Notes under the pieces: generated by a model | What the model was told of the DNA's origin: nothing | The model's database searches: none | The model's input: only the letters and a program-made list of their open reading frames with translations | Translations under genes and position numbers: made by a program | Origin: Omphalotus guepiniiformis | Lineage: Eukaryota; Basidiomycota; Agaricomycetes; Agaricales; Omphalotaceae | Length of the DNA: 64,000 nucleotides | Direction of reading: 5' to 3' | NCBI GenBank assembly: GCA_028554645.1 | Contig: JAQOOI010000015.1 | Span: 1 to 64,000, forward strand | Shown here: in pieces, positions 4,778 to 46,481 of the stretch | Numbering within the stretch: position 1 is the stretch's first letter | Layout: the number at the start of each line of letters is the position of its first letter

Positions 4778-6621
4778 TGTTGCGTCAAAAAGCCTTTCAG
4801 TACTGAAATCTATCAGATTGAAGTAAATATGGAATGTTCAAGCATTGGAAACTGAACATAAAGGATTAGAGTCACCCCAGACTGCTAGTTAAGACATGAA
4901 ACATACTTGTACTCACAAGACCTAAGTGTAGTGTTTGCTACAGTACTGAATCTGGTACTAAGCAACTGTGACCAATGGGTTATACAAAGAGATACTAGTT
5001 ATGCCTCTCCAGATGTGTTGGAATTCCAATGTTCCATACCAGATTGAGTTGGTCAGACCCACCCTCTAATAACTAGAGACTCTACCAAGTGTTGTTGACT
5101 GTAATCCAAGGGGTTGATGGATTTTCACTTCAATTGATCAACTATCTAAGTCCTTTGGACTGATCAAAAGTTCCAGCTGGTCTTGCTAACTAAGTTGGCA
5201 CTATAAGATTGAATGCTGAGAATATGGGCAATCTTGAAGATTGTATTACCAGAGAAATATTGTACATTGAGTACTATGTGGATATAATGTCACTGAGATG
5301 AAATGCCAATCTGTGTAATAATGGAAGTAGATTCAAAGTTACATCTGCACAAATGAGTTAGATACTCAATACTCATGCTGGAAGGAGTTAGATACTGAAA
5401 ATGAGTATCTCTCTGGATCTGAGTATCTCTCTGAAATTCAGTAACCCTCTGAACTTGATGAAAGACAAAGGCACTCTAATTGGAGGTCTTAGACGAAACT
5501 ATGGGATAGAATACTGTCCTAGGAGAAGCTGGGAGCTATCCTAAACAAGAAATGTAACCTGAGTACAAATCTGACCAAAAAGAGATGTATAGGGGTAAAA
5601 CTTGAAATAAACAGTTACTGTACCTTACTGTGGCTGATAGAAACGATGAAGCATGGTCTAGATAAGCTCTAGAGCTTCTACACAACTCCTAATGCTGCCC
5701 TAGTAGAGGAGGATGTGCCAATTTTTGGAGAAACTTATAGGGGACCAGATTTGCAATGCACTGAGGAGAATGTCACCTGTCAGGATACTGGTTGCTATTT
5801 ACAGGTTCTGGACCTTTATTTAGGTACCCTGGGTACGCCCTAACACACCTAGAACGCGGACAAAGCGATATATTTCTGTTTTTATACCAATCTATACCCA
5901 AAGTTCCTACATTTTGACTATCTAACTGGAAAATTACCTAGAAAACTACCTAAAAAGAATCCAATCTCTGCTCAATTGATACTTACTTACTTTTGACTCA
6001 TTTACTGTTCAGATTACTCTTTTAATTTCGAGATATATGTTTGATTTTATGATTTAGTATATATAGCTTACAGAGTATCTATTTAGATTTTCTTAAGCAA
6101 GTACTGCCCAAAGCTCCAAGCCAAAGCAGGAAACCCTTCTTAGACGAAATATAGCCTGGCTCTTTAGAGTTCAGTTCGAGAAATATCCAGTTGTGAAAAC
6201 TTCTGTAAAGTCCCTTGTGGCAGATAAATTGAAAGAGATACTGAATCTTTGCTGAAACTGCTGTTCTGTCTGTGCTGAATCTGCCTGCTGAAACTGTCTG
6301 TGCTGCATCTGAAACTGTTCCCTGCATTGTCTGACCATTGGATCGAGTTTAAACATCGAGATTGATTGTCCTGAATCCCTCCTGAACCCTGAAAACCACC
6401 CTTACCTTCTGTCTGAATCTTGTGTTTTGAGATACCCTCTGCCATTTTTCACCCAGATTGAGATAAAGACATCTGTAACCCTGCAGATTTGAAGTTCAAT
6501 TGTTGCGTCTAACTGTGCGGAATCTCTGACAACGCCAGTCACACCTCACCCTACATCATTTTGATTTGAGTTGGATTGTGCTCATTTGAGTATCTCTCTC
6601 GTTCATTTCATAGTCACTACA
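4778..6621 (+). repeat. 5' LTR of retrotransposon 1
   Basis: Starts TGTTGCGTC and ends CACTACA. It matches 19489-21332 with two length differences seen: AAA versus AAAA near 5335 and five versus four T near 5716. A TATA-like AGTATATATAG at about 6056-6066 is a candidate promoter. The LTR contains two exact GAGTTAGATACT words (5355, 5385) and several GAGTATCTCT words. Confidence 0.95.
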
Positions 6622-6623
6622 TC

Positions 6624-6791: not shown

Positions 6792-8709
6792 AGTTTGCTT
6801 GTCAAAATTAGCAGCTCACAGAGAAACACACGTCCTAGAAAGACTAAGAATTCTGAGAGAGCTGGAACAGAAGAATTGTCACTGAACCAGTCATCCAGAA
6901 GGAAAAGTTCCAAAGGAAAAGAGAAAGAAGTCATACCTGAACCAGATTCAAGTTCCCTTTCGTCTCTTTCGTCCCTAAGTACGATTCCTGAACGGAATAC
7001 ACCTCCAGATTTATCTGAACTCTCAGCTAGATACAAGAAAAATAAGAGGAACTTTGTTAACAGTCCTCAATATTTTGCCTTGACACATAAAAGAATCCCT
7101 GTTAAAATAATAAGGAACCCGAGAAACAATATGTCTACTCATGACAATGCTACTGGGAATGAAGCTCCCCAACAACAAGGACCTACCCAAGGACCTGTTG
7201 AGATGGAAGAGATCTTCATTTTTGGAAATGCAACAGGAATGCAGATTCCTGTTCCTGCTGCTAAAGAGTTGCAGAATGAGAAACTACCTAAAGTCTCTAA
7301 GCAGGCCCCCATCTTTGATAAGAAACATCCATCTGAACTAGTTGCATGGTTGGCAGAGCTGGAAGGCATCTTTGTGTCAACCGGAACTAAAACAGATGCG
7401 GCTAAAGTGATGTTGGCACTCAGATACATGGAGTTCCATACCCGTGAAGAGTTTCAACGGCTTCAAGCTGTTAAAGATTTGGATTGGGATGCTTTCAAAG
7501 AGGCATTAATGAAAAATTTCCCTGAATCTGCAGATAGAGGACTGGGATCTAGACAAAGATTGTATGCTATCATTGATGCATATAAGCTCATAGTGCTTGG
7601 TGCTATTCAGAAACTGATGGCATTTAAAAGAGAGTATGAGATTGAGTATGAGAAACTATCTTCTGGTACTACACCTGTAGTATCAAACTCAGAAGCTGTA
7701 GCTGGTTTCTTGAGTGCACTAGATGAACCCTTCAGAAGGAAACTTCTGGACCGCTTAGAAAACAAAGTGATCAATGGCCACTTACAAGTTCAGAGAGAGG
7801 ATGACCCTTTTACTCTGAAAGATGTAATGTCTGAGGCTGAAAAAAAAACTCTGTTCTGTAAAAAGAGCAGGGGGATACAACTTTGGTTTATTCTTGAATG
7901 GTCCAAATCTGGCAGAAGGATACTCTAGGATACTCCCAACAACTGAGCAGAATGCTACAAGGAAGTTATATGATCCTTACCAAGTAGCATCTACTGTGAA
8001 GTCAGAACCAGATCAGTGGGCAATGAAATTGTCTGCAACAGTGGATAGTCACCAGAACCAGTTTAACCAGATTAGACAAGCCCAGGAAACGAATCTGGCA
8101 GCTCTTGCAAAGCTATCTGAGACAGTTGCTAACTTGGCAAAAATGACCCAAGCAACTTCTAGCTCAGTTAGGATGAACATGAATGCTCCAAATTCCCAAT
8201 CTGGACCTGGAATGAACTCTAATGGACACAATAGTGTACAAAGATCGTCCCAGATGTCATCTGTGAATAACAATACTCATGCTGACTCCAATTGCTATAT
8301 GTGTGATGAGCCTGGACATAGATCTATGGACTGTCCACATCAACTTAGATTTATCAGGTTGGGGTGGATGATCAAAAATAGTGCTGGTAAATGGGCATTG
8401 AAAGATGGAGTATATTGGCCAAGAGCTGATCCATCTGATACTCGGTCTAAGAAAGAGAAGATTGAGGAAATTGCCAAAAGACATGGATGGGAACAACCTC
8501 CCCCTCATGTTGACCAGAACTTGTATGCTTTTGAAGATGAGGATTCTGCTATAGCAGGTCCCTCTCAAAGTAGTTCATTAGATGCTATCAACAGCCTTGT
8601 TGCTCAATTCAGTCAGGTTTGCAATACTTTGCAGAATCTGGCACCAGCAGCTAAATCTGAAACTAAGCAGATTTTGAAACGAGAAAACAACTCTGAGTCG
8701 AAAAACTAG
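6792..8709 (+). CDS. gag: Gag of retrotransposon 1, broken by one frameshift
   Basis: Structural capsid/nucleocapsid protein. The first part is open from 6792 to 7928, the second continues one frame later to 8709. A retrotransposon-gag-like region lies around the block KLPKVSK.APIFDKKHPSEL. A zinc knuckle C-x2-C-x4-H-x4-C starts at 8293. The break falls at the run of nine A near 7840-7848; with one A fewer the frame would run through and align with retrotransposon 2. The first ATG in frame is at 7131, yet about 110 codons upstream of it are open and similar to the corresponding region of element 2, so translation may begin at a non-AUG codon or after leader splicing (TTAG precedes 6792). The stop TAG overlaps the open protease frame, suggesting -1 frameshifting. 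Confidence 0.85.
8700..8706 (+). promoter_or_regulatory. Candidate -1 frameshift site gag to protease
   Basis: G_AAA_AAC in the gag frame (codons TCG AAA AAC) directly before the TAG stop. The protease frame is open through it from 8697. The string TCGAAAAACTA is identical at the same junction of element 2 (35087-35097). The heptamer is one base off the canonical X_XXY_YYZ, so reinitiation at the ATG 8 nt after the stop is a fair alternative. Confidence 0.5.
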
Positions 8710-8717
8710 AGTTTCCA

Positions 8718-10115
8718 ATGAAGGAGATTGGTGAAGAAGCTGTATATACTCAGAATCCTTCTCACAAAACAGGTCAATCTCCTGAGGAAAATAAACTTGT
8801 AAAGAAAAAGAGAGTTGAAGTGTTACTACCTACACTAAGACCATCTGAAAGGGAGAAATACAGACCCCCTGCTATGAGAAGAGAGCCCGTTCGTTTTGAA
8901 CTACCCGTTGATTCTGACACTGAGGAGATTGAATCTCCCTCTGAAAATAACAACGATGTTGCACGGAGAGTATCTAACCGTCCGTTTGATCATGTAAAGG
9001 CAATAGATAGGCCACCTATACCAAAGGGAATGCCTGTAGGAAGCCAGAACAAGGCAAATGAGACTGAAGGAGCTCAATCTGGAACTAAAGATGGAATGAG
9101 TAATGATACAAGGAATGCTATTGTATACACAAAGCCTCCGCGTAAATCTGAGCCCGATTTCAAGCTTAGAAACTCACTATTCAAACCGGGTCTAGCAGAA
9201 GAAATTGCAGACAAAATCTTTAGATCTGAGATAGATATAAGTAGTGGGGACCTCATTGCTATATCTCCGGCACTTCAGAAGATTATGCAGAGAAAATTGA
9301 AGAACAACAGGGTGTATAAGCGTCCTGTAAAGGCTTTTGTTCATGAAGTAAGGGATGAAGATGATCCTGATGGTATTCTACCAGAAGAAGATGTCAATCT
9401 GGTACAGGCAAATTATATGGTCTTTATTGAAGATATGGCCTATGAAAGGGAAGATGTGTTTATTGTCCTAGATGAAGACACAGATGACCTTAAGAAAGGC
9501 TCAGTGGTACACAAGGATGTTGTGGACCAGTATCAGAAAGATGTACCTCCAGAGGAGAGGAACAAGATCATTATAGTAGCCAGCCAGACTGACAGTCTAA
9601 AGGCAATCTACCCAAAGATTAATCACTCTGATCAACAAGTTGAGACAGTAGTTGATAGTGGTTCTCAAATCGTGTCCATGGATACAAGAGTAGCTATTGG
9701 ACTTGGTTTAAGATGGGACCCAGAGACTGTGATCCATATGCAAAGTGCAAATGGTCAATTACAGGCTACTAGGGGACTAGCAAGAAATGTACCATTTACC
9801 TTTGGAGAAATAACTATCTATATGCAGATTCACATAATAGATAAAGTGCCTTATGATGTTCTTTTGGGAAGACCATTTGATGTGTTAACAAGCAGTGTAG
9901 TCAGAAACTTTGAAACTGGAGAACAAGAGATCACCATTACAGATCCAAACAGTGGAATGAAGTGTACAATGGGAACATATGACAGAGGTAGAGGAATCAA
10001 GGTTAAACCTATTCCTGGTGAACCAAAGCTTGTCCCTGAAACACAGAAATCTGCGAGTGTCCCTGTGAAAAATGAGGGAGACTCTCAAAATTTTCATCGG
10101 ACCTCAATGAACTGA
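8718..10115 (+). CDS. Aspartic protease and flanking region, retrotransposon 1
   Basis: A 465-residue frame with a retropepsin-type active site D-S-G (residue 313, VVDSGSQIVSMD) and downstream ...VLLGRPFDVL, the Ala/Leu-Gly-Arg flap-end block of Gypsy proteases. It matures Gag and Pol. The N-terminal 300 residues are charged and probably disordered. The annotated start is the ATG at 8718, 8 nt after the gag stop, but the frame is open upstream to 8697 and could be entered by a -1 shift. It overlaps pol by about 40 nt. The same arrangement, with similar protein, exists at 35107-36459. Confidence 0.88.
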   Translation: MKEIGEEAVYTQNPSHKTGQSPEENKLVKKKRVEVLLPTLRPSEREKYRPPAMRREPVRFELPVDSDTEEIESPSENNNDVARRVSNRPFDHVKAIDRPPIPKGMPVGSQNKANETEGAQSGTKDGMSNDTRNAIVYTKPPRKSEPDFKLRNSLFKPGLAEEIADKIFRSEIDISSGDLIAISPALQKIMQRKLKNNRVYKRPVKAFVHEVRDEDDPDGILPEEDVNLVQANYMVFIEDMAYEREDVFIVLDEDTDDLKKGSVVHKDVVDQYQKDVPPEERNKIIIVASQTDSLKAIYPKINHSDQQVETVVDSGSQIVSMDTRVAIGLGLRWDPETVIHMQSANGQLQATRGLARNVPFTFGEITIYMQIHIIDKVPYDVLLGRPFDVLTSSVVRNFETGEQEITITDPNSGMKCTMGTYDRGRGIKVKPIPGEPKLVPETQKSASVPVKNEGDSQNFHRTSMN

Positions 10116-13100
10116 TAAGAGATCAGGGAGAGGTAGCTGTTTGTATTGAAATGGATGAAGATGGCAATGCCACAATTGCTGGATATAAGCTGCCAGACAA
10201 TGAATTGTTTTCAGAACCTGAAAAGGCTGAGGCATTTGTGTTTGCAGCTGAATCCATCATAAGAGAAAACGATATAGCGGCTGCAGATTCGGTTAGATCG
10301 TATTTAAATCGGTCTGTAGACTCAGAAAAGAAACAAGTGTTCTGTACCTGGCGAGAAAATTTAAATTTGAGTTCAAAAGAGCACTTAGATACTCAGAATC
10401 CGGACTTAGATACTTGCACGGTACTTAATCACACTTCGGAACCTGCATCTGGAACTGAAAAGAGGATGAATAAGGGTAAAAAGGTCAAAAGAGAACCGAA
10501 ACCAGTCCAATCTTCAAGACCCAGATGGAGTAGAGATAAGAATGGCAACAAAATGGCCAGATTGGTGACTGTTTTGGCTTCTAGAAAGTACAAACCAGTT
10601 GCTATTAAGGTCAAACCTGTTAAAGCTACCTTACCTGCGGAGTTCCGGATTGAAAGAAAAATAATTGGAGATCCGTTAAAAGATATGCCTGAGTTACCTA
10701 CTCATCCTCCAGATTTCACTCCTGGTGAGAGGTACTCTCAAGAAAGAAAAGAAATTGTAGACAAGAATCATAATGAAGGATTCTTATGGCCTGAAGAGCT
10801 GAAGCTTGTACACCATCTTATGAAAGTCCAAGAGAAAGCATTTGCATGGGAAGCATCTGAAGGAGGAACCTTTAATACAGAGTTCTTTCCTCCAGTAAAG
10901 TTTCCAGTGTTACCACACACCCCTTGGGTAGAAAGGAATATTCCTATACCTCCAGGGATCTATGATCAAGTGTGTAAAATGATTAAGGACAAAATAGATG
11001 CTGGTGTATATGAGCCTTCTAGTTCATCCTATAGATCCAGATGGTTCTGTGTCTTAAAGAAAGATGGAAAAAGCTTAAGATTGGTCCATAGTTTAGAACC
11101 ACTCAATAAAGTGACTATTCAACATTCAGGAATTCCTCCTGCAACTGCAGATATAGCTAGAAGCTTCTCTGGAAGAGCATGTTTGGGTTTACTGGATATC
11201 TTTGTTGGGTATGATGAGAGGCTGGTTGATGAAAGTTCAAGAGATCTTACAACCTTCCAAACACCTTTTGGCCCACATAGATTAGTGAAGTTACCTATGG
11301 GTTGGACAAACTCTGTCCCTATCTATCATGATGATGTTACATATATCTTCAGAGATGAAATTCCACATGTAACTAAACCTTACATTGACGATGTACCAGT
11401 AAAAGGGCCTGTCAGCAGATATGAAACTGCAGATGGAGGTTATGAAACTATCCCTGAAAATTCTGGCATCAGAAGATTTGTGTGGGAGCATCTGCAGAAT
11501 ATGAACAGAATTGTGCAAAGAATGAAACATGCTGGTGGTACCTTTGCAGGGACCAAAGCTTTCATCTGTGTAGCTGAAGGTGATGTTGTTGGACATCATG
11601 TCAGTTATGAAGGAGAAAAGCCAGTTGAAAGGTTAGCTGAAGTTGTTCTGACTTGTGATGCATCAAAATGGTCTGAGAAGAAAGATATCCGGTCATTTTT
11701 TGGCACTGCTGGTCAGATGAGAATGTTCATAAAGGATTATGCCAAGAAAGCAAAACCTTTGACAATCTTAACTGGAGATGTGCCTTTTCAAATGGGTCCT
11801 GCAGAACTGGAAGCTGTAGAAATGATTAAAGATGGGATTAGGAATGCTCCAGCACTCCGTCCTATTGACTATGATTTAAGTACTGGAATCACCCTTTCAG
11901 TAGATACTTCCTGGATGGCAGTAGGTTTCCAACTATATCAGAGAGACCCTGCAGATTCAAAGAAAAAGTTCTACAACTGGATGGGTTCCATTACTTTAAA
12001 TGAAAGAGAAGCAAGGTTTTCTCAACCCAAGAGAGAACTATATGGCTTGATGTTGGCCTTACAACAAACATACTACCAGACATATGGATGTAGGGATCTT
12101 ACTGTGGAAACAGATGCAAGCTATATTAAAGGAATGCTTGACAAACCCAGTAGTGGTCCCAATGCAACTATAAACAGATGGATTGAAGAAATAAGGAAGT
12201 TCCACTTCACCTTGGTACACATCAAGGGCACTGAACATAAGGGACCAGATGGACTATCTAGACCACCTAGAGGAACCATACCAACTGAAAGAGCGGCATC
12301 TAGAGATCCGGATTCATTTGTTGATGAAGATGATGGTCTGCCGGTGAAATTCAGAATGGGAGATGGTGAATCTGAGGTACCCTTTGATTTTGAAGCCTTT
12401 AAAGATGAAATAGATACTCGAGGTGGTTACTTGCAGGAAGTTGCAAAGTCGATAGACGACTTTGAAGACGATTTGCAAGAAGCTCTTGAAGAAGAACGTC
12501 ACTTGAACTCCATTAGAGAGCTGTTAGCAATTCAACATCCAGTATCTAACTCGATGTTGCAGTTTGCACAGACCTTGGTTATACCTGAAGGAGGTACTGA
12601 ATGGAAACATGAACACCCATATAGAGAGGATCACAGATCTGCATCTACAAAGGAACTGGATGAACAACTAGACCTAATCAAAGATTGGTACCTGCAGGGC
12701 AATCAGCCTCTAGCTCACCTAGGTGAGACTGCTATGAAAAAGTTCATTTCCAGGGCTGTAAAGTTCTTTGTAGACAGAGATGGTAGACTCTATAGAAGGA
12801 ATGATGATACAGGAGGCCAGCATAGACTGGTTGTGCCTAAAGAGAAAAGGATGTACATGATGCATGCTGCTCATGACCATCTGGGACATAAAGGAATGTT
12901 TGCAACAAAAGCTCTCATAGAGAAGCGTTTTTGGTGGCCAGATTTGAATGGAGATGTCAATTGGTTTGTCAAATCCTGCCAAATCTGCCAGAACCGAAAA
13001 TTAGAATTGTTGAAGGTTCCCCCTACTCTTACACACACTCCCTCCCTGTTTTCAGAAGATTCATGTAGATGTGTTCAAAGTATCACCTCCAAGTAATGGT

Positions 13101-14111
13101 TGCAAGGATGTTGTACATGGCAGATGTGCACTCTCATCCTGGTCTGAAGGAAGAGCCTTAAGATCTGACAATGCTAGATCATTGGGAGAATGGTTCTTTG
13201 ATGATATTATATGCAGATGGGGATGTCCGGATGAAGTAGTAACTGATAATGCACCCCAGATGCGAGCTATGCTTAAATGGCTAGAAGATAAATATGGAAT
13301 TAAAGGAATTACTATATCTCCTTACAATTCCCAAGCAAATGGCAAGATTGAGAGAGCCCACTTTGACATTAGAACTGCCTTGGCAAAAGCTACAGGTGGA
13401 GATCTAAAGAGATGGTGGTGGTTTCTCAAACATGTCTTCTGGGCAGATAGAATTACAGCTAGAAAAGGACTTGGATGTTCACCATACTTCCTTGTTACTG
13501 GAGCTGAACCTATCCTACCCTTGGATATTGTTGAATCTACATGGTTAGTAAAACTTCCAGATAGAATCTTGACATATGAGGAACTTATTGGCTATAGGGC
13601 ACAAGCTCTAGCTAAGCATAGAACCCATGTGCAGGAAATGATATCTAGAATTGATACAACCAAGAAAGAGACTCTTAGACAATATGAAGAAGAATACAGA
13701 AATGTTATCAGAGACTTTGATTTCAAACCTGGTACACTTATCCAAGTCAGAAATACACAAGTTGAGAAGAACTTGGACAGAAAGATGTATCCTAGGTACC
13801 TGGGACCCATGATTGTAATAAGGAGAACCAAAGGGGGATCCTACATTGTGGCCCAGATGGATGGTACAGTACTCAGAGAAAAGGTTGCGGCCTTCAGAGT
13901 ACTACCCCATGTAGCTAGATATGAACCAATTGAACTGCCTGAGAACATTCATGAACTTATAGACTTGACTAGTGAACAGCTAGAAGAGATGGTCAATGAT
14001 AACAATGAGTTAGACTCTGAACTTGAGAGAGATTACATCTTTGACAGTATTCCTCAACTGAGAATTCCTGCTGAAGATGAAGATCTTGATGAGTCCAGTG
14101 ATGAAGAATGA
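10076..14111 (+). CDS. pol: Pol (RT, RNase H, integrase) of retrotransposon 1, broken by one frameshift
   Basis: The frame runs from the overlap at 10076 to 13096, then resumes one frame on at about 13050-14111. RT shows the motif-A Asp in LLDIFVGYDER and Y-I-D-D at 11381; the segment LPMGWTNSVPIYHDD replaces the usual PFGLTNA block and marks a divergent mushroom Gypsy lineage. RNase H follows (VDTSWMAVG, the conserved Glu in KRELYGL, VETDASY, HIKGTEH). Integrase has an HHCC region (HDHLGHKG ... CQIC), then D, D and E in FKVSP, VTDNA and NGKIERAH, about 34 residues between the last two. No chromodomain is visible. Compared with element 2 there is one extra T in the CTGTTTTCAG run (about 13048-13052), just before the first catalytic Asp of integrase. 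If real, it inactivates integrase. Confidence 0.9.
10088..10094 (+). promoter_or_regulatory. -1 frameshift heptamer protease to pol
   Basis: A_AAT_TTT in the protease frame (codons CAA AAT TTT), a canonical X_XXY_YYZ slippery heptamer. It lies inside the 40-nt overlap of protease (stop 10113-10115) and pol (open from 10076). A -1 slip gives K-F-S-S-D-L in the pol frame. An identical heptamer is at the same junction in element 2 (36435-36441). I did not model a downstream pseudoknot. Confidence 0.75.
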
Positions 14112-14396: not shown

Positions 14397-15797
14397 TCAG
14401 AGAATGTCTGCAGATGGAAATGCATGGAAAGGAGCTGGATCATCAGCAGTACCTGGACCAGACTCCAAGGGACTCTGGTTGGCCCTGTAAGCCTTCTCCT
14501 TCTGTCTTCGGAGCAATTCCAGACGGGAAAACTCCTTGTAGGCGAATCTGTACTGAGAATGATGATACTGAATGGCATGTTGATGAACACTGAGTTCTGT
14601 CTTCAAGAAGTTGGAAATTGATTGAAGAACCTCAGGAGAGAAGTGGTCCAAGTCCATGAAAGGGAACAGAGCAGTGATACGAGTCACAATCTCTTCTCCA
14701 CTCTCCCGGAGTTTGCGCTCATCTGCAGGATAATTGAGTTAGAAACTCGAAAAAAAAACCGCAGATTGGGTGACTACTCACGGTCTGTCTCCTCTCTAAG
14801 GTTGACGATTGGGTTCTCAATACGAGGCTTCTTCATGACAATCACCTTGTGGGGCTCAGGAATAGGTTCATTCTGCAAGAACATTTATGATCAGTACATG
14901 GAACTACTTGAGCAACTCCAGATGGAACTAAAAACTTACATCTTTGGGTCCAACTGAGGTGGCCTGTAAGAGTTACCAAGGTACATCAGTCAAGAGAAAC
15001 GAATAAACAGTTCTGAACATAAATCTGCTTACCCTTGGAGAAGTGATTACTACTTTGGAAGACTTATGAACTGTGGTAGTAGTGGAAGAACCTTTGGTCT
15101 TGTCCTTGCTAGAGTCCTTGTTATCCTTATTGGGAGCGTGGATCGACGCAGAAAGCCCAAGGGAAGGTCCATCTGCCATCTGAGAAAAAGAAAGACCATG
15201 TTGGGATTTGAGTTAGATACTCAGTAACCAAGGAGTTAGATACTTACAGTAACGTCTCCGTCACCAGTAATGACCTCAATCTCTTCATCGTCATCATCGT
15301 CATCCTCAATAAGTTCGGGAGTTTTAGCTGGCTACACACCGATAGGCAGTTAGATACTCGAAATGAGAGGGATGGTCAAGAAAAATGTACTTTGCGCTTC
15401 TTAGACCCACTGAGAGTCTCTCTGCGCTTTGCCAAGTCGTCCCGGAAAGCTTTAATGGCGGAGAAAGTGTCAGGTTCACCTACAGATGGGAACTTCTTGA
15501 CTGCATCTGCGACCAGATTGACACCTTTGTCGAACAAAGTGAACGCTTCCTCGGACTTAGCAACTGCATAGGCAGGCAGAGACTTCTTCTGTAATAAGAA
15601 ATCAAGTTAGATACTGGACCTGGAATCAAAGATTGAACATTTACAAGATGACTAGCAAGGGCTGTAATAAGCATCCCAAGTAGTTCAGTATCCGCATCTT
15701 TGGCCTCCATGGCTCCAGTAGCTCGAGAAAGATATCGCTGCGTTGTGGCAACCCACTCAGGACGCTCAGGCCAAGTCTTGGGACCTTTAGGGGCCAT
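14397..15797 (-). CDS. Antisense accessory gene A of retrotransposon 1 (K-T-W-P-E-R protein, 340 aa)
   Basis: Unknown protein encoded against the element's own sense strand. Seven exons close perfectly in frame: 15797-15645, 15588-15391, 15331-15248, 15179-15033, 14963-14940, 14872-14782, 14722-14397; all introns are GT-AG of about 56-70 nt. Features: KTWPER at residues 7-12; a basic KKRK at the end of exon 2 (possible nuclear signal); an Asp/Glu run encoded by the 84-nt exon 3; a shared LGLSAS.HAP block; a helical C-terminal block (FSPEVLQSISNFLKTEL). A homologue sits at the same place in element 2 with first and third exons of exactly the same lengths (153 and 84 nt). A TATA box lies about 100 nt upstream. 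I recognise no known family. Homology between the two copies is seen directly; expression and role are inference. Confidence 0.85.
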
Positions 15798-15891
15798 AAC
15801 TGTAAAATGTAGAGATAGAGAAATGATAAAAGTGGAAGGGTTGTAGAACCAAGTGATAGATGGTGCTGAGTCGTTCTGAATCTGCGCTGCA

Positions 15892-15900
15892 CCTTTTATA
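15892..15900 (-). promoter_or_regulatory. TATA box of accessory gene A, retrotransposon 1
   Basis: Minus-strand TATAAAAGG, 95-103 nt upstream of the gene A ATG. Element 2 has TATAAAGG 104-111 nt upstream of its gene A ATG, so the position is kept although the surrounding sequence is not. Confidence 0.6.
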
Positions 15901-15995
15901 TCTGGTCTACCCCGTCTAAATCTGCAAGTTGGTCATTACTCCTATGCTGTTCAAACAGGCACAATGAGGCCTAGCCAGCGTAGCAGATTGATCAA

Positions 15996-16030
15996 CGGGG
16001 ACGTTGAAGTTAATTTTACTTGGGGGGAGA
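15996..16030 (+). other. Internal polypurine-tract-like module, retrotransposon 1
   Basis: CGGGGACG (15996-16003) followed 16 nt later by TTGGGGGGAGA (16020-16030). The same combination forms this element's 3' polypurine tract (CGGGGACG 19458, TTTGGGGGAGA 19478). Both copies are preceded by ATTTTACT. It may be a central polypurine tract, a shared upstream element of genes A and B, or a relic of a module duplication. Confidence 0.65.
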
Positions 16031-16637
16031 GAGCACACAAAGTTTACAAGGCCAAAAATTTTGAATTTTTGAAATTTCAAATATCTCAAATCTGGAGATC
16101 TAGACAGCTTTGACCGCAGAGGACTTAGCCGAATAGCATTGCCGAGTAACCGAGAGCTCTCAACCTTGACAGAAAGGACTTATTAAATTCAATGTATCCT
16201 CAAAAAGAAACGATACTTATTGAAAATTGTGGGCTTAAGTCATTTAAAGAATTGTTTCCCTCTAAAATCGAGTTAGATACTCAATTTGAAGGAGACTCTC
16301 AAATTTATTTCTTATGTTTCACACCAGATTCATACCAAGAAAAACGAAACGTATATTGGAGCATGAAAAGCTCAGTACTATAATAAGAGATACTTCGACC
16401 TATACTACTATAAAGTAAGTACAGGGAGTATCTACAGAAAAAGCGATGTATAAAATTTTTATATATTTGGGCAACCTGGTGTGTTGAACACCAAGGTCAC
16501 CCGCGACGAAATGCAAACGGATACGGCAGGTCCCAGCCAAGCGAAGAGAACGGCAGATCTGTGAGATTGGGACTGAGAGATGGAGAAAGTAAAGGGAAAA
16601 GGGGGTACGAACTATGTGCGCACCCGAGCCTTGAAAG
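16031..16637. other. AT-rich spacer between accessory genes A and B, retrotransposon 1
   Basis: No gene. Directly after the internal module lies an AT-rich inverted-repeat-like stretch (AATTTTTGAAATTT region, about 16054-16085). A similar stretch follows the internal module in element 2. One exact GAGTTAGATACT is at 16270-16281. Confidence 0.6.
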
Positions 16638-17439
16638 TCACTCTGAGAGGGGATCGTCCCTCCCAGCTAGTGGACTGCTTTCTGGCACTAAGACCCTGCC
16701 CGTCGTTTCCTCCTCCAGCTCGTCCTCCTTGTCCTCATCCTCTTCGACCGTGACTTGCGAGGCACCGACCGCCTGAGGCGATTCGTCGATGACTGTAGCA
16801 ACGGGAGTGGAAGGAACATGGGATGGACCAGCTTGCTGCTCGACCTCTGGATCCACCACGATGAAATGACCTGCTTCGTTCCTAGCGATGTAGCTGGCCC
16901 GAGACACCAGGTTGATGTCCCATCCAAGCGCGGTAGCCAGTAGTTTGAGCTGTTCGTCCGAATAGTCGAACGTCGGGTCGCCAGTCTGAACCTGATGTAA
17001 AACGAGACGAGGATCGCGACACGAAGCCTTGATATGATCTTGACGCTGCAAGATCGTTTGGTGTACCCGTTCCATCGCTCGCATCTGCGCGGAGACGCTG
17101 TTTTGCATGTCCTCGTAGGTGTCGATGAGAATCTGCAACTGCTCAGCTTCCTGAGAGACAACTAAGAAACGAAGAACCTTTAATAAAAGATGTCTAAAGA
17201 AATGAAAGGAATACTTACCTGTACTGCCGCTGCGAGCCAATGTGTATGAAAGGCATCGCAACTGATCGCTGCCTTCCAAACCGTACGACCAGCTACAGGT
17301 ATGATTGTCCTTCGCGCAAGTCGCGCAGCGCCATTCGAAAGTCTTGCTGTTGAACTGAGGACGGCATTCTCTACCTTCAGTGTGAGTACCGCCGACGCAG
17401 GCAGCACAAATAGAGTCGCCGAAGAACTAAAGAGCGACG

Positions 17440-17472
<33 letters not shown>

Positions 17473-19184
17473 AGCGGGTATCAATCGCGATTCAGAGAGA
17501 TACGTACCCTATCGAATGTGCGGTTGACTGAAACGAGTTGCTGTAAAGTAACAGGACGGCCATAAGGCCATCCAAAGACAACACGGCCTGTAAAAGAACC
17601 GTTAAACAAACACTAGAAAAATGAAATAAAAGAGATACTTATCGGGTATCGCTTCAAAGTCCTCCTTCGCACGATTTTGAGGTGTTCGTCCATCCGATCG
17701 CTAAGGAAAGGCATGGTCAGTAAAAGGAAATGAAATAAAAAGAAATGACAAGACTTACTTGAAGATTTGGGGCCTCGTAACGAGTGCCCGGAGCAAGAGA
17801 AACAGAAGAAGTAGAGAAATCAGCGCGAGAAGCCCATAGAGGTGCCTCGAAGTCGACGTTAAGATTGACTGGGGCTTTAGTACCCTCAGTCTTGACTGCT
17901 TTCTCATCTTCCTTCTTCTCCTCTTCCTCGTCGCTGGATGCAGGAACAGTAATTGAAGTCGCCTTGGAGCGAGTCTTTCGAGACGCTGGTTCATCGGCAG
18001 GCTCTTCCACACGCATCTTCCGAATCTTCGGTTTTGGCTTGACCACCTGTTTACCCTTGCCCTGTGTAAGAAAACATGAGAAAAGAATAAATAAATCTAT
18101 AAGGAAACGTACCTTTGAAGCTGCAGCTGCAGGCTTCTTACCCTCAGAAACGCGAGACTTCTTGACCGGAGGCTCAGAGTTCTCGGACTCGAAGTCAGTA
18201 TCATCGTCGTCGTCGTCAGTCAGCTCAGTAGATTCGGCCGTGGCTTCAACGTCGGAGATCTTGCGTTTCATCTAAAAATGATAAAATAAGAAGGACCTCT
18301 TCAAACAAAAAGAAAAGACATACTGAACGACCCGGTAAGGGCGTTACACTAGTCTTGGCCTTTGGCTTTGGCTTTGGCTTTGGTTTTGAAACCGGTGCCG
18401 AAACCTTCGAAGATTCAGCGCGAGCAACCTTGGCGGACGAAGCAAGTGTGGCGAGAGGCGGGAGTAAGATCTCATCGTCGTCGTTGTCTTCCTCGAGCTG
18501 CGGAGTTTGCTTAAGCTTAGGAAATGGAGGTAGTGGTTCCCACAAATTGCGAAGCTGTAAAGAGTTAGCAAAAGAAATGAAAACCAGTCTGAGAGATACT
18601 TACGGTATACTTGAGGCAGAAAGAGTCAAGTTTAGCGCGATTTAGCCCCCAGGGCGGCACAATAAATGACGTTGGCTTTGCCTGATGTAGCCATAAGGCG
18701 AGATTGCATGCAGAAAGAAAGGAACCAGTAAAATAGTCGGGGAGATGTGTATGTGCCCGCTGGCACCGATTGAAAGTCAAAGCAACGCGAGTCTGTAAAG
18801 ATGAGGTTAGCTATAACAAAGATGAAAAGAAATTGGTGCCTACCAAGGCAAGATTCAAGTCGTCAAAGGCGGAGGTAATGGTTTTCAACCTGAGACCCTT
18901 GCCGAAATCCTTAAACGATTGATCCCGTAAACGACGGTCCAAGTCGCCTAGTCTTGAAACGATGGCGGAAAGAGCCTTGTAATCTTCTTCGTTCATGTCT
19001 GAGAGCTGTGAGAGGGAAAAGAAAAGAAAGAGGCCGTCAATTGGGAGCGGTTCTCGAATATATATGTGACACACTGTGAAAAGCAGCGCATGAGAGAAAG
19101 GAATTAAAAAGGACTTACCGGTACCTCGGAAGGCTCCCTACTGAGAGTGATAGAGGAAGCCAATTGCCTTGAAAAGTCATCCAT
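16638..19184 (-). CDS. Antisense accessory gene B of retrotransposon 1 (Zn2Cys6-like protein, ~660 aa)
   Basis: About ten exons: 19184-19119, 19005-18844, 18792-18604, 18554-18324, 18271-18113, 18061-17759, 17700-17639, 17587-17508, 17426-17219, 17161-16638. Order of parts: an N-terminal helical region, acidic stretches, a KPKPKPKPKAK run, a KR-rich segment, then a cysteine cluster C-x2-C-x9-C-x12-C-x2-C-x6-C ending CSW (exon 9), a coiled-coil-like region (exon 10), a conserved ALGWD segment and an acidic tail. The cluster spacing resembles fungal Zn2Cys6 DNA-binding domains with longer loops. Element 2 carries a homologue with the same cysteine order, KPKPK run and ALGWD/GLGWD block. The exon pair 17700-17639/17587-17508 is one nucleotide out of phase, so a splice site is mis-assigned or a base is wrong. 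One intron holds a run of 30 A (17440-17469). Confidence 0.75.
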
Positions 19185-19457
19185 CGGGGGACGAAGTGAG
19201 ATGTGAAGAGAAAACGAGAATCACTGTCTGTTTAAGTCGAAACTTCGACAGAAGTAGATTGCGGGTTTCGCCGAAGTCTGACATTGCCGTCACATGCCGA
19301 TGTAAATATATTGACTGGCGATCAATCGAGAAAAGTTTTGCCTGAAGGCAGTCCGTGAGACGTGATATTGTGATATTGAACAGTACGAAATGTGCTTCTA
19401 TGACAAATCTGCTAGTAATAATTGTATCTAACTCGATTTTGGCCAATCTGGTACGAT

Positions 19458-19488
19458 CGGGGACGATCTTATTTTACTTTGGGGGAGA
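19458..19488 (+). other. 3' polypurine tract with upstream CGGGGACG box, retrotransposon 1
   Basis: TTTGGGGGAGA (19478-19488) abuts the 3' LTR TG and would prime plus-strand DNA synthesis. CGGGGACG lies at 19458-19465. Element 2 has the identical tract (45202-45212) and box (45182-45189). Confidence 0.85.
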
Positions 19489-21332
19489 TGTTGCGTCAAA
19501 AAGCCTTTCAGTACTGAAATCTATCAGATTGAAGTAAATATGGAATGTTCAAGCATTGGAAACTGAACATAAAGGATTAGAGTCACCCCAGACTGCTAGT
19601 TAAGACATGAAACATACTTGTACTCACAAGACCTAAGTGTAGTGTTTGCTACAGTACTGAATCTGGTACTAAGCAACTGTGACCAATGGGTTATACAAAG
19701 AGATACTAGTTATGCCTCTCCAGATGTGTTGGAATTCCAATGTTCCATACCAGATTGAGTTGGTCAGACCCACCCTCTAATAACTAGAGACTCTACCAAG
19801 TGTTGTTGACTGTAATCCAAGGGGTTGATGGATTTTCACTTCAATTGATCAACTATCTAAGTCCTTTGGACTGATCAAAAGTTCCAGCTGGTCTTGCTAA
19901 CTAAGTTGGCACTATAAGATTGAATGCTGAGAATATGGGCAATCTTGAAGATTGTATTACCAGAGAAATATTGTACATTGAGTACTATGTGGATATAATG
20001 TCACTGAGATGAAATGCCAATCTGTGTAATAATGGAAGTAGATTCAAAAGTTACATCTGCACAAATGAGTTAGATACTCAATACTCATGCTGGAAGGAGT
20101 TAGATACTGAAAATGAGTATCTCTCTGGATCTGAGTATCTCTCTGAAATTCAGTAACCCTCTGAACTTGATGAAAGACAAAGGCACTCTAATTGGAGGTC
20201 TTAGACGAAACTATGGGATAGAATACTGTCCTAGGAGAAGCTGGGAGCTATCCTAAACAAGAAATGTAACCTGAGTACAAATCTGACCAAAAAGAGATGT
20301 ATAGGGGTAAAACTTGAAATAAACAGTTACTGTACCTTACTGTGGCTGATAGAAACGATGAAGCATGGTCTAGATAAGCTCTAGAGCTTCTACACAACTC
20401 CTAATGCTGCCCTAGTAGAGGAGGATGTGCCAATTTTGGAGAAACTTATAGGGGACCAGATTTGCAATGCACTGAGGAGAATGTCACCTGTCAGGATACT
20501 GGTTGCTATTTACAGGTTCTGGACCTTTATTTAGGTACCCTGGGTACGCCCTAACACACCTAGAACGCGGACAAAGCGATATATTTCTGTTTTTATACCA
20601 ATCTATACCCAAAGTTCCTACATTTTGACTATCTAACTGGAAAATTACCTAGAAAACTACCTAAAAAGAATCCAATCTCTGCTCAATTGATACTTACTTA
20701 CTTTTGACTCATTTACTGTTCAGATTACTCTTTTAATTTCGAGATATATGTTTGATTTTATGATTTAGTATATATAGCTTACAGAGTATCTATTTAGATT
20801 TTCTTAAGCAAGTACTGCCCAAAGCTCCAAGCCAAAGCAGGAAACCCTTCTTAGACGAAATATAGCCTGGCTCTTTAGAGTTCAGTTCGAGAAATATCCA
20901 GTTGTGAAAACTTCTGTAAAGTCCCTTGTGGCAGATAAATTGAAAGAGATACTGAATCTTTGCTGAAACTGCTGTTCTGTCTGTGCTGAATCTGCCTGCT
21001 GAAACTGTCTGTGCTGCATCTGAAACTGTTCCCTGCATTGTCTGACCATTGGATCGAGTTTAAACATCGAGATTGATTGTCCTGAATCCCTCCTGAACCC
21101 TGAAAACCACCCTTACCTTCTGTCTGAATCTTGTGTTTTGAGATACCCTCTGCCATTTTTCACCCAGATTGAGATAAAGACATCTGTAACCCTGCAGATT
21201 TGAAGTTCAATTGTTGCGTCTAACTGTGCGGAATCTCTGACAACGCCAGTCACACCTCACCCTACATCATTTTGATTTGAGTTGGATTGTGCTCATTTGA
21301 GTATCTCTCTCGTTCATTTCATAGTCACTACA
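19489..21332 (+). repeat. 3' LTR of retrotransposon 1
   Basis: 1844 bp, TGTTGCGTC...CACTACA, practically identical to 4778-6621, and followed by the target duplication TCGG (21333-21336). Its minus strand supplies 21 extra codons and a stop to the interrupted CACTA transposase frame. Confidence 0.95.
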
Positions 21333-24300
21333 TCGGCTCAAACTAAGAACAACAGTACAATCAACACTCAACTCCCATCTTGCGGTGTGTGCAATAATCC
21401 AATCCTTATTGACAATTTCGAGCTCTGAAGAAAACGAGGACGACACAGATTTAGCTTCAAAGCCCCTTTCCCAGAACGCCGCAAACGGGTCAGGGCCCCT
21501 ACGCCCTAGATAATTGCTACGTCTGACCGCCATTTTGATTCTCCCATTATGCTCGAAAATATGCTGGATTTGACCCGCAACCCACTCCGCCTTCAGATCT
21601 CCTTCTGGGAAATAGCAGATGTAGCTGTTTCCAATAGCGATGGGGCCAGGAATTGTATATGAGCCATACTGCGCAGGGACGCGAGAAAAACACCGAACGT
21701 CAGCTCTTTTGAGTAATTGAGCAAGTTCAGAAGGTAGAGGTGTAGAAATTAAATGAGGTGGTCGAGAGGAATCACGGCCCAAGTAATGGGAATTATTCAA
21801 TGCGAAAGGGTTCTCCGAAGCGATATGGGCCTCAAATTCCTCTTCTATATCTTCATTTCTCCCATCTTCATCATTTACAAATGTCGAGCCCAACAATGCC
21901 ACTTGGGTATGATATCCATAGGCAGTGTCCAAGAGATCTCGACAAAATTTCAGTAGCGGGGGACATTCAGGCCGCAAAAGCCACTGCCGAAAATTCGCGC
22001 CTTTGTAGAAAGAGTGCAGCAATGTATGCTCATATTCACCTACACAGTGTACCTCAGACGAGAAATCAAACGGTATACATTTCACTTACCAATTCTATGA
22101 TTTATTGGAATCTGTTGCAGCTTTCCAATCATATTCTCGAAAGGAAAACACCACCAATTTCGTACTACGCTGAAAGATTCCATGAAGTCATAGATGTGGA
22201 ATCCGAGATGATGCGATGGTAGTATAAATCCGGGGAAGTTATGTTTGAGACCAACTACATGCTCTCGAAGAGAATGTCGGAACAACTCCCAGCGTTGCGG
22301 TGTCAGAGTGTTCTTCGTCATAACTATTGACGCGCACGTTAAGGCCATGGAGGTTTTGAGAACTTCTATCATATTGCTTGCGTCTGCTGCAGCTATAGGC
22401 GATTCCACATTCCAGAGGCTTAGCAGAGCGAGGGGAAGGTGTATCGAAAAAATAGTTCTCCATTGATCAGCTTTCAGAGTCCCAGCGCGCGGAAGCCCAA
22501 TATCAGATGGTGGATTAGAGATCCAAGCCGGAGTAATGACAGCTTTTGTTGACTCTTGCACCCTTTTCAGGACAGACCGGGAATCGATGACTACAGGCTC
22601 CAGAGCTGCCTTGGGTTTTTCCGCCCTCTAATTCTTAGATGAGGTTCTACCAATAATATGGTTGAGAACCCGAACTCACCCAAGATACCAATTGCTCAAC
22701 TAAGTTCGCCTTTCCTAATCGTCCCACCGGCAAGCGATTTATATCTGTGCAAACAAAAGCGAGAGCTTGTTCAGGCACCCCCTGAAGAGCCTTTCGTAGT
22801 AAATCCAACCCTTTTTCTCCTGAACTTAGTGGTTGCACTAACACACGATGAAGGTGCCCTATTCTATATGCAGAATGATAGTTCATAACATCCGTCAATT
22901 CTTTCAAGAGGGTAAGGCGGTCTTCTGGGCTGAGAACACGATAGCCTGTGGGAGCTTCCGACTCTTGCGCTGTCGGCACCAACCCTTGGGCCCACGGAAT
23001 GGATGGAGGTGCCAGGTTCGTGGGGGTGAAGAATGGCCAAATAAATGTGTCCGTCTCTTCGATATCATCGACGCGCTACCGATAAAATTCGGTCAGTGCA
23101 ATATACTTTTAGTGTTTAGATGAAATTACCCATTGAACCAGTACTTCCGCCATGGCATTTTTTGTGAAATCTTTCTTATCGAAATGCATCTGCGTCTGGA
23201 CCCGTTCTTTGCAGCTACTGGGGAACACCATGAGGTCATTACAGACATATGCTAAAACGATCCATTTTTGTCGTTCGAGGCGCTTCAGTAATGCCTGCTT
23301 CTCTGTGTGAGCAGCTGGGGCTGGAAGTGAGAGACCTTCGTGTACATCACTTATACCCTGAAAAGCACGCATGTCCTTCGCGATGACATCCTTTAGCTTC
23401 TCCATCCTAGATGTACGGGCAGTCTGCAGCGGCAAGGAAAGGTGATTCCATTCCAGAACTGACAACCGCTGATCCGAATCTGTGTACGAGGTCAGAGTGT
23501 TGATGATGTCCTGAAACTTTCGGCCTGGGTTTTCGCCAACAGTCGTCCCGGGTGGAGGCAGAGACGAAAGAGGTGGAGGGGGGAAGAAATCATGATAATA
23601 CGCCCGATAGACGCTTTTCTTGGGTTTCTCGATGCTGGACTCAGGATTGTCTAGGCTTAGTGCATCTCGAAAAAACCGCTGCTGTATGTTTAAGTACATC
23701 GTATGCATAGGATCTACCAATAATTGTTGTGATGGCTTCCAGTATGGAAGGCGCCAGAGTTCTGAGTAACGAGTGCCGTGGTAATCCTCAAAGACCTTGC
23801 GTTCATTTTTATAGTCTGCCTGTCGCCATGATTCAGCTCCTTCTCGTAAGAAGTCGTCGTTGACAGCAGTCCAAGTCTCGCAGTCCGTTCGACCTAAATG
23901 CGCTATGTGCCAGCACTGACACAAGAAACAGAAGATGTGAGATGTAACGTCAAGGAAACCTCCAAAAGGTCGGGCCGCCTTAGAATCCATTAAGACGTAT
24001 GCCAGCGCAACGCGGGAGACCTTGCGTTCTGAGGTTCCAAGATTATGAGACTTATGCTGCATTCCACGAGTATATCCAAGTTCTAGTTCTGTCACAAGCG
24101 GCTGAAGATAGTGCCTATGTTCAGCCTCTTTCGCGTCTGGCTCATGCGGTCCTTGAATGATGCCGGGGACATATATATAGGCAGGGTCGTTGCGTATCTC
24201 GAGGGGAAGATTAAGACATGTCATGCCCATTACACCGGTAGAGCTGGTACGACCACGAACACGATTTCCTTCGACGTTGAAAAAATCGCCATGAAGTATG

Positions 24301-32842: not shown

Positions 32843-32873
<31 letters not shown>

Positions 32874-33109: not shown

Positions 33110-33111
33110 TC

Positions 33112-35098: not shown

Positions 35099-35106
35099 TA
35101 CTTTCG

Positions 35107-40699: not shown

Positions 40700-42024
40700 T
40701 TAGGCACTGCTAGAGTTGGTAGCTGTGGTATCAGCTGAGCTAGATCCAGCCTCCTCCATGGTAGCATCTTGAGGGGTCTCCGAAGATGAAGAATCAGCGG
40801 TTTGCTTGTCCTCGACTGAGAGACAACTAAATTGCTCTCGTTGAATGTTGTCCATCTGTTTAACAACGAACTGGTACTGATTGGCATGGAAATGTACAGC
40901 ATGCTGAAGAGTGACTTGTTCGGTACGAAGGAAATTGAGAACTGAGCGTAAAGCTTCGACGCTAAGCTTGGGCAGTTCGAGATATGGAGTGAGCACGATA
41001 TGGCGGAAAGTTGTAGCGATGGCGGCCTCTCGAAGGGTCTTATCCTCTGATCAATATGGTCAGTAGGGTTGAGACAGGGAGAACCCATGCTTACTTACCC
41101 TCAATATCCTCACGAAGATCGGAAATGGGTTGCTCGAGGCGAATGCGCTTGCCATTGGCAGCTGCAATGTTATCCTGAGCAACTGATAAGTAATACATGG
41201 CCTTGAGGTAGGAACGAGAACGTACATCCATTCCAGGTACATCGCCGAGGGCCAATGAAAGAGTAGAAGAACGATTCGCGACGTCCTGAACGTTCGGCGA
41301 AGTTATAATATGATGGATAAGAAGACACCGCACTTACCCTGACCTTCTTGTTGAACTTGAGGCCAGGTGGAAGGCTTAATTCTTGAGAAGGGGCATGCAT
41401 AGATGCAGAAAGACCCAATGCGGCTGCGAGTCCGGCTTTATAGTCCTAAACTTAGGTCAAGTCGGAGTCTCGACCTAAGAAATATGGATACTTACTGGAG
41501 TAGAAGCAATCCGACCTCCGACGAACTCAATCTCATCATCATCATCATCGTCTTCGATGATAAGAGGAGATTTAACGTTCTGAGAAGAGTATAGAATGAA
41601 GCTTGTAAAGATTAATGAGGAAAGAGGAGAGTTACCTTGCGCTTGCGAGGGGGCTGTCGAAGCACCTCGAGCTTGGCAAAGAACTCCTCGAGCCCATTTA
41701 GATGGTAGGGACGATTGACCCCATCAATCTCTGTAATAGCTATCACAGTGTTGAGTCCTTTCTGGAAGGTATCAAAGGCGATATCATCCTTGGCCACCAC
41801 TTTGGCATTCAAAGGCTTTGACTACGAAGAAATATGAGCTCGACGAAGCCTGAAGAATATAATAAACAAACCATATGATCGGCTAGAGCCGTCACGACTG
41901 GTCCTAGAAGCTTGGGACTGGCTTTGGGGAAGGCTTGAACGGCTTGAGCGGCAGTAATGGCCTCTTGAGTCTCCTTTAACCATTGATCCCTCTCGGGCCA
42001 GGTCTTGTTGGATCCTCGAGCCAT
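40700..42024 (-). CDS. Antisense accessory gene A of retrotransposon 2 (K-T-W-P-E-R protein, 354 aa)
   Basis: Six exons close in frame: 42024-41872, 41821-41636, 41579-41496, 41445-41338, 41285-41099, 41046-40700; introns are 50-60 nt, GT-AG. It matches gene A of element 1 in KTWPER (residues 7-12), LLG..(I/V)TALA.H at the end of the 153-nt first exon, VAK...AF..F.KG.N.V in exon 2, a basic RKRK, the Asp run (IEDDDDDD) in the 84-nt third exon, LGLSAS.HAP, and the C-terminal block (LSVEALRSVLNFLRTEQ, then HA..(F/Y)H..QY.F). A Ser/Thr-rich tail follows. Conserved exon sizes and reading frame across two diverged elements argue for a functional protein. The function is unknown. Confidence 0.87.
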
Positions 42025-42135: not shown

Positions 42136-42237
42136 CTTTTCTGACTGAGAACGGAACTCCTGGTCCCTTCGACGAAGTAACATGCCCAACTGATTAAGGC
42201 ACCCTGAACTTAACTAAGGACTAGCCGAGATATGCAG

Positions 42238-42271
42238 CGGGGACGCTGAACTTCTTTTGGTTTGGGGGAGA
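42238..42271 (+). other. Internal polypurine-tract-like module, retrotransposon 2
   Basis: CGGGGACG (42238-42245) then TTGGTTTGGGGGAGA (42257-42271). The last 15 bases are identical to those before the 3' LTR (45198-45212). It lies between genes A and B, as in element 1, and is followed by an AT-rich AATTTTGAAATTT stretch. Confidence 0.7.
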
Positions 42272-42783
42272 GGAGTCCATCTAGGACATAGAATTTTGAA
42301 ATTTCTAAAGATTTCATAAAAACGAAACTTAAGTGTTTTAGATTTCAATAAATCAACATCTAAGATTGGTTGAAACGAACAAATAAGTGCCTGAGGCACA
42401 GAAGTGATAAGTAAGGGCACGAGACTTATAAATAAAGGGGTCTAGTTACTACTTATTACCGTCGAGCTGGGATTTCTCTAAGTCGAGTCCATACTTACAG
42501 CCTCGACGAAGGCAATCTTAAAGATATTAAATTAAATTTGAACTTAACAATGGATTCACACATAAAGAAAGAACATGAAAGCTTTTATTTGGCACTAAGG
42601 CCACGAGATTTCTATGTACATGGTACAAGAAATGAAAAACAAAGATATTTGGGCCTCTATGAAGAGAACCCTTGCTAGATATAATGATTTTGGAGCTCTA
42701 TAAAGAGACTCCTTGCTGCGATATAATGAAAATATTATTTAAAGTCCGAAGACTGTAGGCTACGCCTCGACGAAGATCCCGAG
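42272..42783. other. Spacer between accessory genes A and B, retrotransposon 2
   Basis: No gene seen. AT-rich; contains GGGTCTAG (42438) and two partly matching GATATAATGA words (42678, 42719). It probably holds the 3' untranslated part of gene B and distal upstream sequence of gene A. Confidence 0.5.
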
Positions 42784-44704: not shown

Positions 44705-45181
44705 TAGAAGAAAAGAAAAGAACAAGTATGTATAGAGAAAAACAGAAGGCTAGAGCCACTCTGAGTGAAAAATAGAGAGAAAGGAAGAATGGGCGTGAAA
44801 AAGTTGAAGTCCGTTTACTTATGGAACGACTCACCTGACCACGTTCCCACAGCGCACGGACCAGTGAAAGGCTGAGAGATGCGTGAAAAGAAAGAATAGA
44901 GAAGCAAGAAACTGAATAAGAAACGTGAAAGAGGAAAAGAGACGGAAAGTCACTTGCCTGAAAAGAACATACGGCAATTGCCGAAGGCAAACAACTGGCC
45001 GAGAGTATTTTGGTCGGAGTTTGAAATTTGATGATCGGCATAGACCGGCAAAAAGCAATGAACAGTGTACCACTGCTTCGGCGAACTCTGAGATGTGTGT
45101 GAATAAGTATTATATAATCAACAGGCTGTCTGCGAAGCTTTAGAATGTATCTTTGGCTGTATGACTGACCGATCACCAGAC

Positions 45182-46442: not shown

Positions 46443-46481
<39 letters not shown>

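Follow-up and report, generated by a model that had tools for sequence, protein, structure and literature searches.

The first 64,000 nucleotides of contig JAQOOI010000015.1 of Omphalotus guepiniiformis (assembly GCA_028554645.1, forward strand), referred to here as the window, contain a Ty3/Gypsy long terminal repeat (LTR) retrotransposon, element 1, in which two multi-exon genes, A and B, are encoded antisense to gag-pol and lie between the end of the integrase at 14111 and the 3' LTR at 19489. This two-gene cassette is real, is kept by selection and is owned by the element. The features of element 1 are as follows:

4778-21334, plus strand: element 1 (Ty3/Gypsy), delimited by its aligned LTR pair
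4778..6623, plus strand: 5' LTR from the LTR alignment, with a probable 4-bp target duplication, TCGG, judged from the flanks
6792..14111, plus strand: gag-pro-pol region, several open reading frames (ORFs) from the ORF list
15797..14397, minus strand: antisense gene A, 7 exons, 340 amino acids, intron phases 0,0,0,0,0,1; exons 15797-15645, 15588-15391, 15331-15248, 15179-15033, 14963-14940, 14872-14782 and 14722-14397
15891..15900, minus strand: TATA box 103 nucleotides upstream of the gene A start
15992..16007, plus strand: internal hairpin between A and B, 6-bp stem, 4-nucleotide loop
16022..16033, plus strand: internal polypurine tract
19184..16638, minus strand: antisense gene B, 10 exons, 659 amino acids; exons 19184-19119, 19005-18844, 18792-18604, 18554-18324, 18271-18113, 18061-17759, 17700-17643, 17587-17508, 17426-17219 and 17161-16638
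17219..17426, minus strand: gene B exon 9, six-cysteine zinc-type motif, C-x2-C-x10-C-x12-C-x2-C-x6-C
19455..19468, plus strand: hairpin preceding the 3' polypurine tract, 5-bp stem
19481..19488, plus strand: 3' polypurine tract, adjoining the LTR
19489..21334, plus strand: 3' LTR from the LTR alignment

A search of the organism's own genome at the DNA level (42.5 Mb, 80 contigs) gave at least 33 matches, 28 of which, the window copy included, span the whole cassette at 91-100% identity. The 3' halves of 20 of these 28, again with the window copy, were compared. All 15 introns (6 in A and 9 in B) are kept in every one of the 20 copies, and their GT donors and AG acceptors are present throughout save for one lost splice site each in L017 (intron 1 of A) and the window copy, where the donor of B intron 7 is mutated and the end of exon 7 was placed by comparison with the other copies. 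Neither gene contains a premature stop in 19/20 copies, both frames are undisturbed in 18/20 and both genes are free of visible damage in 16/20; both have decayed in copy L027, while L018 has a +2/+1 indel pair in B exon 10, a compensated frameshift that alters part of the frame. The sense strand of the cassette, counted in three copies, has 70-93 stops per frame. The two spliced minus-strand genes that a preliminary description of this DNA had placed between integrase and 3' LTR are thus confirmed, together with their coordinates and exon numbers. Intron 8 of gene B (17427-17507) is 60 to 81 nucleotides long among the copies and in the window copy includes a run of about 30 A (T on the minus strand).

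Both genes are constrained as proteins. Across 19 copies of this family (the decayed L027 dropped, L018 kept), A has a pooled ratio of nonsynonymous to synonymous polymorphism (pN/pS) of 0.049 and B one of 0.115, compared with 0.077 and 0.089 in two pieces of pol, and segregating sites fall at first, second and third codon positions as 5/3/31 in A and 30/20/140 in B (chi-square p 7e-9 and 4e-31, a statistic that ignores shared descent). When the same exons are read one or two bases off, the ratios rise to 2.6 to 5.9 and the signal of constraint is gone. Four of the six distinct exon indels are multiples of three, the remaining two being the L018 pair, as opposed to 3/20 distinct indels in introns. 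Per-site diversity is higher in the introns of A than in its exons (0.036 and 0.010), whereas in B it is lower (0.022 and 0.028), so for B it is the codon comparison, and not the intron comparison by itself, that demonstrates constraint.

The same arrangement recurs elsewhere in the genome. A second element in the window, element 2, has its own antisense pair in the same place:

31611-46704: element 2
40700..42024, minus strand: gene A homologue, 7 exons, phases 0,0,0,0,0,1 as in element 1
42234..42275, plus strand: internal hairpin and polypurine tract
42784..44704, minus strand: gene B homologue, 6 exons, the six-cysteine one bordered by introns of phase 0 and phase 1 as in element 1
45178..45212, plus strand: 3' hairpin and polypurine tract

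The order of A and B is alike in the two elements. Homologous A/B pairs occupy this place in four families, represented by element 1 (family 1), element 2 (family 2), L029 (family 3) and L030 (family 4). Homology was established with tblastn and blastp: the B proteins of elements 1 and 2 match at E 1e-24, and an exon of element-2 A used as a probe finds family 1 at E about 2e-9 and family 4 at E about 1e-6. The modelled genes of families 1-3 have six to ten exons each; in family 4, where gene B is modelled in part only, the intron preceding the six-cysteine stretch is missing as judged by eye. A fifth family (L031), 50-51% identical at the integrase end, has two antisense multi-exon genes at equivalent places, and according to the models the first ends on a phase 1 intron and the second has an exon with six cysteines that is bordered by introns of phase 0 and phase 1. 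Profile comparison with hhalign, using small alignments and no positive control, gave probabilities of only 0.2% (A) and 2% (B) for homology of this pair to the other families, and it is therefore called a positional equivalent only. An ab initio gene model trained on A/B introns and codons, and hence circular for elements 1 and 2, returned A of element 1 and B of element 2 exactly, A of element 2 with an earlier start and B of element 1 correctly except for introns 7-9. In families 3-5 it recovered multi-exon antisense genes, with A fragmented in family 3 and B in family 4, at scores of 292, 160 and 299 compared with 42, 5 and 87 for the sense strand of the same stretches.

Purifying selection extends beyond family 1. 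Among three copies of family 2 (element 2, L034 and L035) the ratio of nonsynonymous to synonymous divergence (dN/dS) ranges over 0.16-0.26 in A and 0.10-0.23 in B, L034 having a premature stop and changed splice sites in gene B. Between families 1 and 3 it is 0.17 for the integrase end, 0.15 for A and 0.14 for B, the last two at synonymous divergence (dS) above 1. A ratio near 1 among copies, which the preliminary description named as evidence against a kept cassette, is not what is seen within or between families.

A genome-wide census ties the genes to the element. Gene A matches lie antisense to an integrase match, 334-2120 bp 3' of it, in 118/124 cases, and none has an integrase in the same orientation within 3 kb. 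For 103/122 gene B matches, some being parts of a single gene, an integrase lies on the opposite strand within 8 kb. Starting from the integrases (150 scored of 184 candidates), A stands beside 118/126 of the matches listed for families 1-4, and in family 5 each of the 24 listed integrases is followed, 2.2-2.4 kb downstream, by an antisense gene of the B type. Most copies therefore carry an antisense coding gene between integrase and 3' LTR, as do elements of the Grande/Retand/Boty type. Matches without an integrase number 19 for B and 6 for A, one of each being L027; no stand-alone host copy was seen with the A and B probes in this genome, where the lone matches opened were those at L032, L033 and L027, together 3 of the 19 for B and 1 of the 6 for A. 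In L032 (1494-2440) and L033 (1545-2491), two loci that share 98% identity, a 957-bp stretch corresponding to part of element-2 gene B and the spacer downstream of it (at about 82% identity) lies inside a different Gypsy element, between ORFs that by eye look gag-like and protease-like. The pattern is that of genes found in element context and not solely as independent host genes, and with the evidence for constraint it bears out the earlier proposal that this lineage keeps an element-borne two-gene antisense cassette. A and B are almost certainly owned by the element and selected as proteins.

The cassette seems not to have simply followed pol. Between families 1 and 3, dS is 0.29 at the integrase end, 1.24 in A and 2.25 in B, the large values being rough because they are near saturation; within family 1, mean dS is 0.094 in B and 0.032-0.042 in pol, with A, at 0.036, not higher than pol. 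Given this mismatch between cassette and pol, exchange of the 3' cassette, or of parts of it, between elements seems likely. Family 1 also has a mosaic look, diversity ranging from 0.006 to 0.047 per 400 bp along window positions 11800-20599 (L010-L028 without L027), and the copy closest to the window copy switches along the stretch.

Each antisense gene has on its promoter side a hairpin followed by a polypurine tract. All ten modules (five families, two places each) consist of a 5-6 bp stem, a G-rich loop of 3-4 nucleotides and then a purine tract, and the internal purine run is identical in 20/20 copies of family 1. Elements 1 and 2 were where the modules were first spotted by eye, and a pattern search missed the 3' module of family 3 and the inner module of family 5, which inspection by eye then supplied, so ten out of ten is not a blind count; a comparable hairpin arises by chance in 10% of cases (2035 of 20000 random). 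The stems differ in sequence yet pair, with 91.1% of cells paired and 13 double-change cells; a shorter loop places the 3'-side row of family 5 one column off and part of it is counted as unpaired. For paired cells, double changes and covariation score, 0/500 shuffles were as high, and slid versions gave 15-46%; the other two of five covariation measures are weak, pairs changed on both sides being matched by 31/500 shuffles and further pair types by 54/500. Half-sites that vary while their pairing is kept favour a folded strand over a double-stranded protein site.

The internal copy could be the scar of an old fusion of two elements, each with an antisense gene, a hairpin, a tract and an LTR, and not a working primer site, a real possibility at somewhat below even odds. 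The presence of the same module on the promoter side of both genes is what such a fusion would leave, and the contrast in dS between the integrase end and A and B shows that 3' modules seem to be exchanged; against it, the A-B spacer shows no obvious LTR remnant, with short matches of 15-26 nucleotides only, and A and B are dissimilar to each other. A common origin of A and B is unsupported (hhalign probability 0.7%, from small alignments with no positive control). A bolder and rather doubtful proposal is that the cassette is an ancient, modular, multiply spliced system of two antisense proteins with a promoter-side hairpin and tract per gene, in which plus-strand synthesis would have an additional primer in the inner tract, a first for Ty3/Gypsy, and recognition of the hairpin or its DNA by B or A would couple replication to antisense expression.

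The TATA box upstream of A is identical in 20/20 family-1 copies, and a strict TATA box occurs 46-111 nucleotides upstream of A in 5/5 families, against a background of one per 1380 nucleotides on the same strand. Introns of A and B probably persist because reverse transcription copies sense-strand RNA, from which they cannot be spliced out. The preliminary description had offered this explanation, and the complete lack of intron loss in 20 copies is as expected if sense RNA is the template copied. On this account, a retrotransposon can retain introns by encoding genes against its own RNA.

In sequence, the B proteins of all five families share by eye the motif C-x2-C-x6..10-C-x8..12-C-x2-C-x6..7-C, followed by S/T and W/F. 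Compared with the Zn2Cys6 (GAL4-type) spacing, C-x2-C-x6-C-x5-12-C-x2-C-x6-8-C, family 5 fits and families 1-4 deviate by a longer first loop of 8-10, and B sequences containing the motif gave no Pfam Zn_clus match in families 1, 2, 4 (in part) and 5. Five aligned A proteins have an arginine-lysine cluster and then an acidic tract, whose end in families 1-4 we presume, by eye, to resemble a SUMO-interaction motif.

The overall best explanation, with a probability of roughly 0.6, is that A and B are antisense accessory protein genes of a Gypsy lineage that act as nuclear regulators of the element. Each would have a promoter of its own, with the TATA box serving A, and be transcribed in the opposite direction to gag-pol, then spliced and translated. 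B, with its basic stretches and zinc-type motif, may bind DNA or RNA of the element and A may act as its partner, the pair working in the nucleus on the element itself, where it could tune sense transcription or shield the element from host silencing. Taken by itself, the assignment as nuclear regulators stands at about even odds. That selection keeps both genes readable suggests that the element makes its own regulators.

Several results weigh against this explanation. B stands beside only 100/126 of the integrase matches listed for families 1-4, and a strict TATA box lies within 111 nucleotides upstream of B in only 1/4 scanned families. A and B of element 1 have no match in the protein database, which is weak evidence, since a length filter and introns make such a search ill-suited to spliced genes of fungi, although 1369 pol relatives show that the database does contain relatives of the element; scans of viral_contigs and genome_contigs gave no confirmed relative. 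Among the A and B sequences scanned, whole or in part, no match exceeded the Pfam cut-offs, with weak sub-threshold matches only and with A of families 2, 3 and 5 outside the scan. AlphaFold predicts a helical last exon of A (predicted local distance difference test, pLDDT, 80; predicted template modelling score, pTM, 0.46) and a poor model for the C-terminal half of B, from an input with translated intron letters (pLDDT 56, pTM 0.31), and the fold search found no match below E 3, the best being E 3.3. Finally, a nuclear role is based on sequence features read by eye, and the transcription and splicing of both genes are predictions from DNA sequence.

Other roles can be weighed against the same observations. 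A and B might instead serve the replication particle or integration targeting, as envelope-like, chaperone or targeting proteins, and not transcription control: sense env-like genes occupy the slot between integrase and 3' LTR in other elements, according to PMC7264820, and constraint on A and B is similar to that on pol. The antisense orientation, the TATA box belonging to A, the basic stretches and the zinc-type motif nonetheless point to the nucleus, and such a role appears unlikely. Less probable again is that antisense transcription is itself the main function, with A/B RNA pairing to sense RNA and limiting copy number and the proteins secondary; the antisense TATA box at A would suit it, and antisense RNA functions are discussed for plant elements and retroviruses in PMC7264820 and PMC10186651, but an RNA-only role does not require the strong codon-level constraint found in both genes. 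That A and B are recently captured or hitchhiking host genes with no role for the element is very improbable: their many introns give them a host-like look, and no source gene was found either way, but the same pair sits in the same place in four homologous families, many copies are under constraint and no stand-alone host copy appeared among the lone matches opened.

The LTR pair of element 1 is near-identical (1,847 aligned columns, 0 mismatches and 2 gaps), the lack of mismatches indicating a young insertion, and protease, reverse transcriptase (RT), ribonuclease H (RNase H) and integrase follow in the Ty3/Gypsy order, which was taken from relatives and the ORF list and not domain by domain. 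An aspartic protease (PF13650/PF13975) is above the Pfam cut-off, RNase H and integrase-type domains were found on relatives of about 1300 amino acids that are 50-66% identical to element-2 pol, and for gag there is a sub-threshold Ty3_capsid match only (E 0.065) and a CCHC stretch spotted by eye. Pol of the window copy is broken into two frames and is uninterrupted (1372 amino acids) in many other copies. Among the pol relatives in the protein database, one named match, from Lentinula edodes, is 65% identical. In element 2, gag, protease and RT-integrase form three overlapping frames (33266-35098, 35056-36459 and 36369-40508), and as each is shifted back one base, two frameshifts or splicing are suggested. 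Directly past element 2, ORFs at 46683-49568 resemble, by motif, the RT of another retroelement type, and element 2 may therefore have inserted into another retroelement. A record labelled Thermoplasmataceae archaeon (P0013) has a Gypsy pol 63-66% identical to that of element 2 and is most likely fungal contamination. Elsewhere in the window, a 30-bp tandem repeat at 25950-26279 encodes a repeated peptide.

Gypsy elements have a known, still unexplained class of antisense accessory genes, described mostly from plants, with related work in PMC11963269, PMC8365987 and PMC4227169; LTR elements with extra ORFs are also reported from rotifers (PMC5408684). The preliminary description knew of no case in fungi, which is wrong, as PMC7264820, citing Zhao et al. 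2011, describes brtn, an antisense gene of the Botrytis element Boty, and PMC8365987 also cites that work on Boty / BcGypsy1 of Botrytis cinerea with brtn. The word 'antisense' is absent from the main text of two surveys, PMC3411680 (transposable elements of Laccaria) and PMC3248453 (LTR elements in fungi), and 'intron' is absent from the reviews PMC11963269 and PMC7264820. Titles and the beginnings of abstracts in the open-licence literature yielded no description of an antisense cassette of two genes with introns in any Gypsy element of a fungus, which is no proof of its absence from print. With antisense accessory genes known in plant Gypsy elements and in fungal Boty, the two-gene, many-intron form appears to be the new part.

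Boty is a close parallel by description, being likewise a retrotransposon of a fungus in which an additional gene lies antisense in the region from pol to the 3' LTR, but it has one such gene as cited, against two here, and belongs to another fungal group. The plant elements Grande (gene23), RIRE2 and Retand (TRP28) share antisense accessory ORFs in a long region between pol and 3' LTR, and the antisense gene of Grande has its own promoter and encodes a nuclear protein. They differ in that the Retand TRP28 domain (PF04195) was not found in the scanned A and B proteins, and in the six to ten exons per gene here. The internal tract resembles the central polypurine tract of retroviruses and Ty1 as a second purine tract within the element, none having been identified for yeast Ty3 according to PMC5371799; here it accompanies a hairpin in the spacer that separates A and B, and the doubled hairpin and tract may bear on the priming of DNA synthesis in elements that carry A and B.

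The role proposed for A and B can be likened to that of HBZ in human T-cell leukaemia virus type 1 (HTLV-1), which is known, and to that proposed for maize Grande gene23. HBZ and related genes of deltaretroviruses are antisense, spliced and encode a nuclear regulator, as described in PMC10186651, and the likeness is functional only: HBZ is one gene with a basic leucine zipper (bZIP) domain and a promoter in the 3' LTR, whereas here there are two genes, a zinc-type motif and a TATA box inside the element. Furthermore, the fungal case brings together, in one genome, many copies of a pair of genes that are clearly selected as proteins, retain their introns and, for A, have a conserved TATA box, making the role of such antisense genes directly testable.

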